Positions 22,303 to 55,330 of a DNA stretch of 64,000 nt are shown one piece after another. Numbering within the stretch: the first letter of the stretch is position 1; every line of letters starts with the position of its first letter. This stretch comes from Pleurocapsa minor GSE-CHR-MK 17-07R (lineage in GTDB: Bacteria > Chloroflexota > Anaerolineae > Aggregatilineales > Phototrophicaceae): contig JAHHHY010000002.1 of NCBI GenBank assembly GCA_019359125.1, positions 310,001 to 374,000 on the forward strand. The letters run 5' to 3'. The translations under genes were made by a program, and so were the position numbers. Below the pieces are notes generated by a model, which was not told the origin of the DNA, did not search any database, and worked only from the letters and a program-made list of their open reading frames with translations.

Positions 22303-22330
22303 AAACGCCCCCGAAGCTTCGAGGGCGTTT
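22303..22330. terminator. Bidirectional terminator between mraY and rpsA
   Basis: AAACGCCC (22303-22310) pairs with GGGCGTTT (22323-22330). The loop contains a small GAAGCTTC palindrome, and a T-rich tail follows on both strands. It separates convergent mraY and rpsA. Confidence 0.85.
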
Positions 22331-30536: not shown

Positions 30537-30562
30537 CTGAAACACGCCGCATCGATACTGAA

Positions 30563-30600
30563 AAGAGGCAGTCCACACGATGGGCTGCCTCTTTGTTTTT
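30563..30600 (+). terminator. trxA terminator
   Basis: AAAGAGGCAG (30563-30572) pairs with CTGCCTCTTT (30586-30595) and is followed by GTTTTT. It separates trxA from the next gene. Confidence 0.85.
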
Positions 30601-33756: not shown

Positions 33757-35286
33757 ATGATGTATGAACCGCAGCAGACGAAAATAACCAAGGTTCTGAT
33801 CGCCAATCGCGGCGAAATTGCCGTGCGCGTGATTCGCGCATGCCGCGACCTGGGCATCAAGACCGTGGCCGTTTACAGCGACGCCGACCGCGCCAGCCTG
33901 CATGTGCGCTATGCCGATGAAGCCATTTATATCGGCCCGCCCGCCCCGCGCGAAAGCTATCTGGTGGGCGAGAAGATCATCGAGGCGGCCCGGCGCACCG
34001 GCGCCGATGCCATTCACCCGGGCTATGGCTTCCTCAGCGAGCGCGAATGGTTCGCGCAGGCTGTGTCCGACGAAGGCATCATCTTCATCGGCCCGCCCGC
34101 CAAGGCCATCGCCACGATGGGCGACAAACAAAGCGCCCGCGAGGCCGTGAAAAAGAATGGCGTCCCCGTGGTGCCCGGCACTGAGCCCGGCATGCGTGAC
34201 GACGAAATTCTGGCGGCAGCCGCGCAGATTGGCGCGCCCGTCATGGTCAAGGCGGCGGCTGGCGGTGGCGGCAAGGGCATGCGTGCCGTGCATGCGCTGG
34301 AAGATCTGCCGGAGGCGCTGGCGGCGGCCCGGCGCGAGGCCGAGAGCGCGTTTGGCGACGGCGAAGTCTATCTGGAAAAGCTGATCGTCGGCGCACGCCA
34401 TATCGAGTTCCAGATTCTGGCCGATATGCACGGCAACACGATTCACCTGGGCGAGCGCGAGTGCTCGATTCAGCGCCGCCATCAGAAGCTGGTGGAAGAA
34501 GCGCCCAGCCCATTCCTTGATGCAGACCTGCGCCAGCGCATGGGCGATATGGCGATTCGGGCGGCCCAGAGCGTGGGCTATGTCAATGCCGGCACGATCG
34601 AGTGCCTGGTGGATAAAGACAAGAATTTCTACTTCATGGAGATGAATACCCGCTTGCAGGTGGAGCATCCCGTGACCGAGTTGGTCACTGGGCTGGACCT
34701 GGTGAAAGAGCAGATTCGTATCGCGCGCGGGCGCCGTATGGGCCCGACGGAAAGCGTGCTTCAGCCGAAAGGCTGGGCGATGGAATGTCGCATCAATGCC
34801 GAGGACCCGTATAACAACTTCATGCCCAGCGTGGGCACGATCAGCACACTGCTGCTGCCCACCGGGCCGGGCGTGCGCGTGGACAGCGGGGTGTATGCTG
34901 GCTACAGCATCACGCCATACTACGACAGCATGATCGCCAAGCTGATTACGTGGGGCGATGATCGTCCGGAGGCGATGCTGCGCATGCGCCGCGCCCTGGA
35001 AGAATTCACCATCATGGGCGTCAAGCACAATATCCCCTTCCACCAGAACCTGATGCGCAGCTTCAGCTTCATCGCGGGCAAGATTGACACCAAGTTCGTG
35101 GAAGAACGCTTCAGCATGCACACGTACGAGACCGATCCTGATGATGGCGAGCTGGAGACGGCCGCGATTGCCGCCACGCTGTATGCGCATCGCCAGCGCC
35201 AGCTGCGCAGCCAGGTGGTCGGGCGCAATGAGCGCGATACCAGCAACTGGAAATGGCTGTCTCGCTGGGAACGGATCCACCGATGA
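33757..35286 (+). CDS. accC: Biotin carboxylase subunit of acyl-CoA carboxylase
   Basis: A 509-residue ATP-grasp enzyme that carboxylates biotin on the partner carrier protein. The N-terminal LIANRGEIAVRVIRACRD, the P-loop-like AAAGGGGKGMRAV, ERECSIQRRHQKLVEEAP, the catalytic block EMNTRLQVEHPVTEL and the C-terminal LHPDN-type region (FHQNLMR) are present. ATG 33757 (with a second ATG directly after) follows GGGAGGAAGG. Its stop overlaps the next start within ATGA, which couples translation. Confidence 0.96.
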   Translation: MMYEPQQTKITKVLIANRGEIAVRVIRACRDLGIKTVAVYSDADRASLHVRYADEAIYIGPPAPRESYLVGEKIIEAARRTGADAIHPGYGFLSEREWFAQAVSDEGIIFIGPPAKAIATMGDKQSAREAVKKNGVPVVPGTEPGMRDDEILAAAAQIGAPVMVKAAAGGGGKGMRAVHALEDLPEALAAARREAESAFGDGEVYLEKLIVGARHIEFQILADMHGNTIHLGERECSIQRRHQKLVEEAPSPFLDADLRQRMGDMAIRAAQSVGYVNAGTIECLVDKDKNFYFMEMNTRLQVEHPVTELVTGLDLVKEQIRIARGRRMGPTESVLQPKGWAMECRINAEDPYNNFMPSVGTISTLLLPTGPGVRVDSGVYAGYSITPYYDSMIAKLITWGDDRPEAMLRMRRALEEFTIMGVKHNIPFHQNLMRSFSFIAGKIDTKFVEERFSMHTYETDPDDGELETAAIAATLYAHRQRQLRSQVVGRNERDTSNWKWLSRWERIHR

Positions 35287-35777
35287 AATATGTGACGACA
35301 CTCAACGGCAAGACGTTTGAAATCGAGATCAACAAGGACGGTACGCTGCTGGTCAATGGCCATCCGCGCACGGTCGATTTTCTGGCGCTGGGGCCGGAGC
35401 TGTATTCAATCATCCGCGAAAACGAGAGCTATGAAGTCGTGATCGAGGAAGATGCTGACGGCGTGCAGGTGCAGCTGCGCGGCCAGCTTTTCAGCGGCAC
35501 GGTGCTGGACGAGCGCGCCCAGCTGATGGCTTCGCTGCGCGGCGGCCCCGCTTCCGAGACGGGCGAGGTGTCGATCAAGGCGCCGATGCCCGGCCTGATT
35601 GTCGTGCTGCCTGTCAGCGAAGGCCAGGAAGTCGTGCAGGGCCAGACGGTGGTCATCCTCGAAAGCATGAAGATGCAGAACGAGCTGAAAGCGCCGCGCG
35701 CGGGCACGGTTCAGCGCATCAGCGTGAACGAAGGCCAGAGCGTGGAGCAGGGCAAGCTGCTGGTCACGATTGTCTAG
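35283..35777 (+). CDS. accB: Biotin carboxyl carrier protein
   Basis: A 164-residue carrier. The last ~75 residues are a biotinyl domain (IKAPMPGLIVVLPVSEGQEV... ) with the modification motif ESMKMQNE, Lys ~130, the biotin attachment site. The first ~90 residues form a beta-rich subdomain (YVTTLNGKTFEIEIN) that probably docks to the carboxylase. Completes a three-subunit enzyme with the two upstream genes, unlike the fused alpha subunits of many propionyl-CoA carboxylases. Confidence 0.95.
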   Translation: MKYVTTLNGKTFEIEINKDGTLLVNGHPRTVDFLALGPELYSIIRENESYEVVIEEDADGVQVQLRGQLFSGTVLDERAQLMASLRGGPASETGEVSIKAPMPGLIVVLPVSEGQEVVQGQTVVILESMKMQNELKAPRAGTVQRISVNEGQSVEQGKLLVTIV

Positions 35778-35890
35778 GCCGCATGTTCCTGCGTGCGTCT
35801 TTCGAAGCCATTTATGTTGACCAGCGCTGTTCACCGCAGATGTGCTTTTCGGAGCTTGCTGGTGGTCAAATTCTTTTGCGGTTTTTCGTA

Positions 35891-35948
35891 GGGGCCTGGC
35901 ATGCTGTAGGGGCTTGGCATGCCAGGCCCCTACAGCATGCCAGGCCCC
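35891..35948. repeat. 58-bp near-perfect palindrome (GGCATGCTGTAGGGGC family)
   Basis: The 58 bp read almost identically on both strands; only one base pair (35913 against its partner) is mismatched, as G-T. It consists of GGGGCCTGGCATGCTGTAGG and its inverted repeat around a TTGGCATGCCA-like centre. Part of the 409-bp gap at 35778-36186, which otherwise holds smaller palindromes and no believable gene. Confidence 0.9.
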
Positions 35949-36003
35949 GTAGGTACCAGGTTAAGGAACTCTCGCCGAGGATTCAGCCTGATTTTGCTCC
36001 TCC

Positions 36004-36156
36004 GGGGCGGACACATAGGTCCGCCCCTACTCAAATTCGCACGGATTTGAAGGAAAAATCTCACGGTTGCACATGCTTGTCCGCGAGGAATGTAGGGGCG
36101 GACCTGCGGGTCCGCCCGCTAACCAGAAGAAAAACAGAGGCTTGGCATGCCAAGCC
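36004..36156. repeat. Cluster of three smaller GC-rich palindromes
   Basis: Within the same intergenic gap are: GGGGCGGAC/GTCCGCCCC (36004-36012 with 36019-36027), GGGCGGACC/GGTCCGCCC (36096-36104 with 36109-36117), and a perfect 18-bp palindrome GGCTTGGCATGCCAAGCC (36139-36156) followed by CCTACAGCATG, which repeats part of the 58-bp element. Such GTAGGGGCGGAC-type repeats are dispersed in many environmental bacterial genomes and are often mistranslated as short proteins. Confidence 0.85.
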
Positions 36157-36186
36157 CCTACAGCATGATATCGCCTCTGATGTTTC

Positions 36187-37524
36187 ATGCTCACCTGGGC
36201 TGTCATGATCCCGATCAGACGCCTACTTCCCCATTTTGACATCATCGCTCTGCTGGCGGCCTGCCTGTACATCATGGCAGGCGTCCCAACGGTGCCGTTT
36301 CATGGCGACGAGGCCACCCAGGTCTACATGAGCCGCGATTACGCCTATCAGTTCATGCAGCGCGATCTGTCGCTGGTGCGCTACAGTGACCCGCCGGTCA
36401 GCCCGCAGGAGCAGGAACTGCGCCTGCTGAATGGCACAGTGAATAAATACAGCATCGGCCTGGCCTGGCATCTGGCCGGATTCAGCCTCGCGGACATCAA
36501 CGAACAGTGGGACTGGGGCGCCGATTATGCCTATAACGTCTCGACAAATCATGCGCCAGCGGCCGATCTGCTAAACGTCGCTCGACTCCCGTCAGCGTTG
36601 TTTCTATGCCTGGGCGCGGTGGCGATCTATGGCATCGGCCTGAGGCTGGGTGGTCGTGGCGCGGCCCTGCTGGCCCTGCTGTTTTACGCGCTCAATCCGA
36701 CGCTGCTCATCAACGGCCGCCGCGCCATGATGGAAGGGAGCTTCATCGCCTTCACGCTGCTCGCGGTGCTGGCCGCGCTGGCGTGGGCAGGGGCGAAAAG
36801 TGCTCGCGGACGGCTGATATTCGCGCTGCTGCTGGGGGTGTCGTGCGGCATGGCGCTGGCCAGCAAACATACCGCCGTGTTTGTGCTGGTCCCGCTGGCG
36901 CTGACCTGCGGCGTGGTTGCGCTGGTCAGCCTGATTCGGGGGCGGGATGTTTCAGGCCTGCTGACGCTGCTGGCAGGTGGTTTGCTGGCTGGGTTGGTCT
37001 TTTATGCGCTCAATCCCGCGTGGTGGGGCGACCCGCTGGGTCGGGCTGGTTATGTGCTGGACATGCGCCAGCGGCTGTTAACCGGGCAGACGGCTGCGTT
37101 TGGCGGCTATGCGGATGTGTCGCAGGCGCTGGGCGGGTTCTTCCGGCAGGCGTTCGTCGGCCTGCCGCAGTACTTTGAGGTGGGCGGCTGGGAGAATTAT
37201 ATCGCTGACCAGATCGCGGCCTACGAATCCGGCCCGTGGCGCGGCATCAGCCTGGGCGGTTCTGCGTTTGGGGGGGTGATTTTGCTGCTGCTGACCATCG
37301 CCGGGCTGGCTGTGCTGGCCGTGCGCCGCAGTCTGCCGATGGGTGTGCGTGCGATTGCGCTGGCTTGGTCTGCGTCTGCGCTGCTGAGCGTGCTGCTGCT
37401 GACCCCGCTGGAATGGGCGCGCTATTGCCTGCCGGCGCTGCCGGTCGTCGGGCTACTGGCGTCGCTGGCCGTGTGGGCCATTGGCATGAATCTGTGGAGG
37501 CGTGTGCGTGGACATTCTGGCTGA
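36187..37524 (+). CDS. GT-C-type membrane glycosyltransferase (PMT/ArnT-like)
   Basis: A 445-residue protein with about ten membrane helices. The FHGDE motif at residues 38-42 in the first extracytoplasmic loop is the Asp-Glu catalytic signature of the GT-C family that uses polyprenyl-phosphate sugars. An R-x-M-M-E-G-S motif (RRAMMEGS) typical of the PMT_2 group follows near 180. Donor and acceptor are unknown. The first ATG lacks a clear RBS; ATG 36205 is an alternative. The stop region overlaps the next gene by 17 bp. Confidence 0.8.
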   Translation: MLTWAVMIPIRRLLPHFDIIALLAACLYIMAGVPTVPFHGDEATQVYMSRDYAYQFMQRDLSLVRYSDPPVSPQEQELRLLNGTVNKYSIGLAWHLAGFSLADINEQWDWGADYAYNVSTNHAPAADLLNVARLPSALFLCLGAVAIYGIGLRLGGRGAALLALLFYALNPTLLINGRRAMMEGSFIAFTLLAVLAALAWAGAKSARGRLIFALLLGVSCGMALASKHTAVFVLVPLALTCGVVALVSLIRGRDVSGLLTLLAGGLLAGLVFYALNPAWWGDPLGRAGYVLDMRQRLLTGQTAAFGGYADVSQALGGFFRQAFVGLPQYFEVGGWENYIADQIAAYESGPWRGISLGGSAFGGVILLLLTIAGLAVLAVRRSLPMGVRAIALAWSASALLSVLLLTPLEWARYCLPALPVVGLLASLAVWAIGMNLWRRVRGHSG

Positions 37525-37957
37525 AATCGGCAAACTGTTCAGCGTGGGCGGGGTGGCGTTTCTCAGCCTGTGGGGCAGCGTTCCTGTCGGGCTGGCGCTG
37601 TCCCTGTCTCCCGTGCTGATCGCGCTGGCCGCCGCGGCAGGCTATGCGGTTGGCGCGGGCATCATTCTGTTTCTGGGCGAGCCGGTGCGTAAATGGTTTT
37701 ATGCCCGCATGGGCCATCGCCTGCCCACCGACCCCGACAGCCGCACGCGCCGCCTGCTGGATAAATACGGCGTGGTTGGGCTGGGGCTGCTGGCCCCGGT
37801 CACGCTGGGCGCGCAGATCGGCGCCCTGCTGGGCCTGACGCTCAACATGCCGCGCCTGAAGCTGTTTGCGGCGCTGGCGCTGGGCGGCCTGCTGTGGGCG
37901 GGCTTATTCACGGCATTGTTTTCTCTGGGCGTGGTGGCTGTGACGGGTGCAACCTGA
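37508..37957 (+). CDS. Small multidrug export protein-like membrane protein
   Basis: A 149-residue protein with four hydrophobic segments. The block LDKYGVVGLGLLAPVTLGAQIGALLGL fits the small multi-drug export family (Sm_multidrug_ex), whose true substrate is not known. The GTG at 37508 is seven bases after GGAGG and is preferred to the GTG at 37502. It overlaps the glycosyltransferase by 17 bp, so they are likely cotranscribed. Confidence 0.7.
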   Translation: MDILAEIGKLFSVGGVAFLSLWGSVPVGLALSLSPVLIALAAAAGYAVGAGIILFLGEPVRKWFYARMGHRLPTDPDSRTRRLLDKYGVVGLGLLAPVTLGAQIGALLGLTLNMPRLKLFAALALGGLLWAGLFTALFSLGVVAVTGAT

Positions 37958-38038
37958 TTTATTATTCGCGCGTACATATACCTTGTGCTATATTGTCGAT
38001 GGAAGCACGATTTGTTCGCTCACGCACGGGGGAAATTT

Positions 38039-55286: not shown

Positions 55287-55330
55287 AAAAAGAGGCGTCC
55301 CCTGAATCCAGGCGACGCCTCTTTTGTTTT
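55287..55330. terminator. Bidirectional terminator between prmA and ftsH
   Basis: AAAAGAGGCGTC (55288-55299) pairs with GACGCCTCTTTT (55314-55325), followed by GTTTT on the plus strand and preceded by A-runs for the minus strand. It serves the convergent prmA and ftsH genes. Confidence 0.9.

Follow-up and report, generated by a model that had tools for sequence, protein, structure and literature searches.

What kind of element is the 58-bp near-perfect palindrome at positions 35891-35948 of the window (that is, of the whole 64,000-nucleotide stretch analysed here), and how could such a structure have arisen? The initial annotation had placed it between the accB stop and a glycosyltransferase gene, in a gap with three further palindromes of the same style. 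The sequence is indeed present there, with 28 of its 29 pairs matched and T35914 opposite G35925 as the sole unmatched pair, and the flanking genes are as described, with an accB-like ORF ending at 35777 and a PMT-type ORF starting at 36187. While geometry, position and resemblance to the other palindromes all stand, the annotation could not see three things, namely the REP-in-REP arrangement, a dispersed element of about 0.2 kb and a partner transposase. Taking these into account, we consider it highly probable that the 58 bp are a nested pair of double-foot GTAG REPs, one full 28-bp REP forming the centre of another, adjoining the left end of a MITE-like repeat of about 0.2 kb, and that their putative mobility is linked to a RAYT, a tyrosine transposase of the HUH type.

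A nested pair of dispersed hairpins

Read from the left, the palindrome runs GTA + GGGGCCTGGCATGC + T + [GTAGGGGCTTGGCATGCCAGGCCCCTAC] + A + GCATGCCAGGCCCC, with the inner REP in brackets. In other words, the 58 bp consist of two nested copies of a 28-bp hairpin, GTAGGGGC-NN-GGCATGCC-NN-GCCCCTAC, referred to as family A in the following. Its parts are:

35891-35948, no strand: 58-bp near-perfect palindrome, 29 pairs with 1 mismatch, DNA fold of -36.5 kcal/mol
35888-35904, plus strand: left half of the outer REP (GTAGGGGCCTGGCATGC), then an extra T; 35888-35905 and 35906-35923 are identical at 16 of 18 positions, head to tail
35906-35933, no strand: inner 28-bp double-foot REP (GTAGGGGCTTGGCATGCCAGGCCCCTAC), one of 25 genome copies with at most 2 mismatches, both feet present
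35935-35948, plus strand: right half of the outer REP (GCATGCCAGGCCCC), with an extra A before it, at the same place as the left-flank hairpin in other copies of the 0.2-kb element

As single-stranded DNA, the palindrome is predicted to fold into one hairpin of 27 pairs with a 4-base loop (z of -8.75), and it may also form a cruciform.

Symmetry of this degree is far beyond chance. Namely, in 1,243,525 of the 4,854,942 bases of the genome, the 64-kb window included, we found 45 perfect loopless palindromes with arms of at least 10, as compared with 1, 1 and 1 in three block-shuffles, and the focal palindrome is the longest near-perfect loopless one within this survey. The survey replaced a first, looser scan for GTAG hairpins, in which 21 were found against 10-21 in five shuffles. 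By our own count, 16 of the 45 belong to family A and 23 to a family B (GTAG followed by GGGCGSSTCGCGASSCGCCC); five pairs of the latter are inverted at a distance of 109-112 bp, their tags pointing at each other and one tag being degenerate. The window also contains near-perfect inverted repeats that are unrelated to the GTAGGGGC family, having 14-17 pairs and one mismatch (55288-55325, 22303-22330 and 30562-30594).

The genome-wide search which the annotation had proposed shows that the nested form occurs once in the genome, while its building block is dispersed. In particular, GGCATGCTGTAGGGGC with at most one mismatch matches just the two arms of the palindrome itself. The family A core GCNNGGCATGCCNNGC, on the other hand, has 46 exact occurrences, and a search for full 28-bp copies with at most 2 mismatches gives 25, the reversed control giving 0; the flanks of the dispersed copies are unrelated to one another. 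For the core with 1 mismatch, the reversed-pattern control (17 against 154) is skewed by composition, and we draw no inference from it. The looser pattern GTAGGGGC-N8-16-GCCC gives 69 matches on one strand of this genome and 75 on the other, versus 11 and 6 for its reversed control, and it has at least one match in 28 of the 31 genomes searched, several of which, including G003, G005, G009, G014 and G027, fall below their own control.

A few of these copies deserve separate mention. At two places in the genome (G000 C5:269668-269705 and C13:138966-139003), family A palindromes are lengthened to 38 bp by symmetric flanks, and the extension at the second place mirrors the first 8 bases of the 0.2-kb element. 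Genome G029, of the same order, has 45 copies of the 28-bp palindrome with at most 2 mismatches, mostly of the AA/TT variant, and a RAYT gene lies between two of them (C1:12700 and 13313). Finally, the exact TT/AA 28-mer occurs at three places (L102-L104) in a distant Candidatus Peribacteria MAG, on contigs MFXS01000005.1 and MFXS01000032.1, a match that would suggest either horizontal spread or convergence.

The gap and the repeat of about 0.2 kb

The gap around the palindrome and its two borders comprise the following further features:

35253-35777, plus strand: accB-like biotin carboxyl carrier ORF, the upstream neighbour (PF00364, E 8.5e-20)
35949-36134, plus strand: copy of the MITE-like repeat of about 0.2 kb, with its left terminal inverted repeat at 35949-35965 and the right one missing
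36005-36030, minus strand: inner GTAG hairpin of the repeat (GTAGGGGCGGACCTATGTGTCCGCCC on the minus strand)
36092-36117, plus strand: second inner GTAG hairpin, in opposite orientation, GTAG tags inward
36134-36161, no strand: right-flank REP with an eroded left arm, then AGCATG, as after the inner focal REP; 36136-36167 is a direct repeat of 35908-35939 at 94%
36187-37524, plus strand: PMT-type glycosyltransferase ORF, the downstream neighbour (PF02366, E 2.5e-11)

The three additional palindromes of the annotation are thus found as GTAGGGGC-type sequences at 36005-36030, 36092-36117 and 36136-36161, and they are the two inner hairpins and one eroded flanking hairpin of the MITE-like repeat.

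Could the palindrome simply serve the upstream gene, as an intrinsic terminator or an mRNA-stabilising hairpin kept for gene expression? It does lie 113 bp past the accB-like stop, its predicted hairpin is very stable, and REPs are thought to be often transcribed (PMC3733652). However, no T-run follows it on either strand, and the same hairpin is dispersed at unrelated sites. What is more, a scan of 35700-36300 gives just one terminator-like site, on the minus strand at the eroded right hairpin, with 0.5 expected from shuffles, and neither the terminator nor the promoter scan has anything at 35891-35948. We therefore regard a conserved role of this kind as very improbable. An Rfam search of 34000-38000 returned nothing at the gathering score. 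Here, the element is treated as a selfish or neutral repeat, and no role is claimed for it with respect to the neighbouring genes.

The sequence at 35949-36134 matches 20 other places in the genome, with 78-91% identity over 82-213 bp. Together with a longer one on contig C1, this makes 22 copies, the focal one included. As seen in their alignment, the element has inverted ends (ATTGGCACCAAGTTAAG and its complement) and two oppositely oriented inner GTAG hairpins. It often adjoins hairpins of the type studied here: by our reading, a family A hairpin borders it on at least one side in 13 of the 22 copies, and one of the family B type in 3 more, the typical arrangement being GTA-[22-bp core]-element-[22-bp core]-TAC.

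Are these flanking hairpins duplicated targets? Both ends were located by the end finder in 15 of the 22 copies, the other 7, including the focal one, being left out of the flank test, and in 12 of these 15 a direct repeat scoring at least 12 is common to both flanks. Flanks of different copies have a mean score of 3.5, with two pairs lacking family A flanks reaching 14 and 17. Direct repeats are not confined to family A flanks either, as L054 (18 of 18 bases) and L062 (20 of 21) show. That said, the palindromes to the left and right of the element differ in L046, which is among the 12, and in L051, with a score of 8, and no flanking repeat is seen in L048 and L055, all of which argues against simple target duplication.

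A search for a transposase-bearing relative of the repeat found none in this genome. An 845-bp relative on C1 (L068:1331-2175, corresponding to G000 C1, 23830-24674) has an ORF for a YCII-domain protein inside and 21-bp direct repeats (GGGGACAGCCCTGCCGTCYCC) on either side, an arrangement that would suit an element with a cargo gene. As an autonomous version of the element it was rejected, since the inner ORF does not encode a transposase.

RAYT-like genes in this and related genomes

A candidate partner for family A is encoded in the same genome, which has two RAYT-like genes, both on contig C16 (1115-1579 and 239331-238774). The former is followed by three hairpins of family B, and not of family A. 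In the latter, an ORF of 186 amino acids, a perfect family A hairpin, GTAGGGGCAAGGCATGCCTTGCCCCTAC, lies in frame and is read as VGARHALPLR (residues 96-105), and a second family A copy with one foot only (C16:238774-238750) stands at the 3' end, where its GTAG supplies the TAG stop. These in-frame and stop-codon copies can be read directly from the sequence, just as the anatomy of the palindrome and the dispersal of its copies can.

The predicted structure of this protein has a mean pLDDT of 81.3, and its REP-encoded residues fall within a segment with pLDDT below 50 (93-109). In a fold search the top match is PDB 4er8, a RAYT bound to its REP hairpin (E 3.6e-7), yet the fold alone does not separate RAYT from IS200/IS605 transposases, as these follow closely (rank 2, 4.7e-7). 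In a sequence profile search, 4er8 is the only chain found. The motifs of the protein are NHVH, WQ and YIITNP, as compared with the printed NH[IFV]H, WQ and YIxNNP, the last one differing by one residue. Both proteins of this genome score below the 80-bit cut-off of the NCBIfam RAYT model NF047646, with 67.7 bits for the L018 protein, and with 49.3 and 24.3 bits for two separate pieces of the RAYT that contains the internal REP; the same cut-off is reached in one of the six control genomes in which the model gives a match. Two other genes were considered and set aside. Namely, the 3.3-kb locus of an IS200-type gene on C4 has no GTAGGGGC hairpin, and a third Y1 match (C5 535798-536112, 24.5 bits) lies in the end of a 609-aa ORF and is not a small transposase gene.

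Do such hairpins accompany RAYT genes elsewhere? A RAYT match at E 1e-20 or better is present in 73 of the 151 genomes of the order. From these, the 30 best-scoring loci, one per genome, were fetched, 6 were dropped because the motif pattern found no clean ORF in them, and 24 were parsed. A GTAG hairpin of at least 9 pairs lies between the HUH and WQ motifs in 15 of these 24 loci, our own included, a frequency that is not free of bias, since the query alignment A1 was partly built from proteins already known to carry such hairpins; in L218 (G024), which counts among the 15, the match is interrupted by a stop codon. None of the 24 has a GTAG hairpin between YFVT and HUH or after WQ, and codon-shuffled RAYT middles gave 0 in 480. 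Outside the ORF, but within 250 bp of it, a GTAG hairpin is likewise found in 15 of the 24. Ten loci have hairpins in both places, and in 9 of these the two have a stem family in common, as we read them. Double-foot REPs, and in-frame REPs inside tnpA-REP genes of subclass 2.4, are already in print (PMC6006769, 2018), and the in-gene REPs of the relatives, as identified from their sequences, repeat what is printed there.

REP abundance and RAYT presence are not strictly parallel. Genome G018 has 18 and 23 GTAGGGGC-N8-16-GCCC sites, against 9 and 6 for the control, and despite this excess shows no match to NF047646. As a separate observation, a RAYT-like ORF in G004 (L205, C10:185591-186355) has a long run of NTMAPD/NTMSSD-like tandem peptides in its linker, at the place where other RAYTs carry REPs.

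Mirrored base changes

Out of the 25 near-consensus 28-bp copies of family A, 24 are perfectly symmetric, each base change in one arm being mirrored in the other. Namely, 13 copies have 0 mismatches, 0 have one, and 12 have two, and in 12 of these 12 the two changes are mutually complementary. Ten of the paired changes fall on position 5, where all four bases are thus represented, and positions 4 and 2 account for one each. The single asymmetric pair belongs to the inner focal REP, where the mismatch falls on an N position. Regularity is lower among the family A hairpins next to the MITE-like repeat, several of which have unmatched pairs. In G029, which belongs to a different family of the same order, 18 of the 45 copies are asymmetric by hand count, a difference from the present genome with a Fisher p of 0.0015, which should be taken as a guide only, given that copies are not independent.

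Perfect dyad symmetry in 24 of 25 copies is also what one would expect of a binding site for a dimeric protein, kept by selection and not mobile. It should be noted, however, that position 5 accepts all four bases and always finds the complement in the other arm, while a dimer that tolerates any base there would presumably not need the pairing. In addition, copies adjoin the MITE-like repeat and sit inside a RAYT gene. For these reasons, we find a dimer site exceedingly unlikely and retain the reading as REPs. Complementary stem changes among REP subfamilies have been described before (PMC3733652), and the symmetry seen here fits two causes: either a small number of symmetric masters have spread recently, or each arm was synthesised with the other as template.

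Origin of the nested form

Is the nested form real? Palindromes are a known source of snap-back errors, and an artefact of assembly or amplification, with a REP snapping back on itself, could account for a form that is unique in the genome, in an assembly of 23 contigs. As against this, the palindrome combines two variants, CT/AG in its outer halves and TT in the inner left arm, it lies inside a contig of 769,663 bp, and related half-plus-full tandems are found in four other genomes. An artefact thus seems to us highly improbable.

The pattern of a half REP followed by a full REP occurs at 9 places in 8 of the 151 genomes. Judged by eye, units of the same family are joined at five of the nine, i.e. 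the focal one and those in G004, G090, G056 and G024, the units at the other four (G006, G146 and two in G117) not being of one family; in G056, two halves precede the full unit. A mirrored outer right half is found in none of the tandems of G004, G090, G056 and G024. A search for an empty site of a solo REP found none, the flanking genes of relatives aligning mostly at 65-75% DNA identity and the intergenic gap not aligning. An exact insertion boundary cannot be drawn, because the junction GCATGC is itself palindromic.

How, then, might a REP have come to lie within a REP? As single-stranded DNA, such as occurs on the lagging-strand template, a REP would form a hairpin, and a RAYT would recognise its GTAG foot together with the hairpin and move or copy it. 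The symmetric 58-bp form could have come about if a REP entered the tip of one already in place, or was re-copied there by template switching, with the arms subsequently matched through hairpin-templated synthesis. The order of events would then be tip growth or REP-into-REP insertion, followed by arm matching and, finally, by duplication upon entry of the 0.2-kb element. The mirrored changes and the half-plus-full tandems fit such copying through a folded hairpin, without proving it.

Within the REP reading, one may ask whether the nested form arose by template switching with the right-flank copy about 230 bp away, and not by insertion of a REP into a REP. Positions 35900-35923 are identical to the reverse complement of 36144-36167 at 24 of 24 bases, and the AGCATG flank is common to these two alone, both inside the focal gap, among the 43 cores examined of the 46. 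Template switching is, moreover, published as a process that can create and mend hairpins (PMC8794818). Yet the shared AGCATG could equally remain from a duplication of the whole nested structure at the insertion of the 0.2-kb element, and GCATG is also REP core sequence. Template switching with the right-flank copy is, in our opinion, a possible route, though somewhat less probable than not.

A more general picture can be proposed, although as a conjecture that is rather unlikely to hold in full. Namely, double-foot REPs would multiply via the folded hairpin, with one arm templating the other, so that copies would be perfectly symmetric, mutations would be written into both arms, and growth at the tip would lead from half-plus-full to nested forms. 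The same hairpins would be insertion sites for the 0.2-kb element, whose entry would duplicate a hairpin in its entirety (about 18-22 bp). The way in which REPs spread is described in PMC8266576 as a still open question. A small family with a partner transposase, always-mirrored variation over four bases, and half, full and nested forms would make a model of hairpin copying directly testable; were the 58-bp palindrome a mere chance nesting of two REPs, it would be ordinary.

Comparison with known repeat classes

REPINs and BIMEs are inverted pairs of REPs, and the 0.2-kb repeat likewise holds two inverted GTAG hairpins, about 60 bp apart. Unlike them, it adds terminal inverted repeats, as well as flanking hairpins that resemble duplicated target sequence. 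With bacterial MITEs and REP-targeting IS elements, the repeat has in common terminal inverted repeats, a number of about 20 copies and a position at palindromes, but its flanking direct repeats, at up to 22 bp, are unusually long. REPs as targets of IS elements are cited in PMC3733652.

The same paper (PMC3733652, 2013) describes GTAG-tagged REP families with which the hairpins studied here have much in common: the GTAG tag, the short hairpin, complementary stem changes between subfamilies, dimers with the GTAG tags inward, REPs inside genes, and TAG stops supplied by REPs. Its families are, as far as that text defines them, recognised by a tag at one end, unlike the double-foot focal REP, and an identical family may be among its 24.

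A published class that the hairpins match is that of the double-foot REPs of TnpA-REP (RAYT) subclass 2.4, as the main text of PMC6006769 presents them. Neither 'nested' nor 'tandem' nor 'template switch' appears in that main text, which is no claim that nesting is new to print. The 58-bp palindrome can be placed among REP-type elements of an established class, its nested arrangement being unusual; it is sequence, gene neighbourhood and fold that link it to this class. As in subclass 2.4, GTAG opens the hairpin at its 5' end and the complementary CTAC closes it at the 3' end, G-C pairs stand at the base of the stem, and REPs both flank the transposase gene and lie in frame within it, between the HUH and Tyr motifs (PMC6006769). 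The double-foot features found here are, accordingly, GTAG at one end, CTAC at the other, a hairpin between them, dispersed copies, and a copy, with one foot only, beside a RAYT gene.
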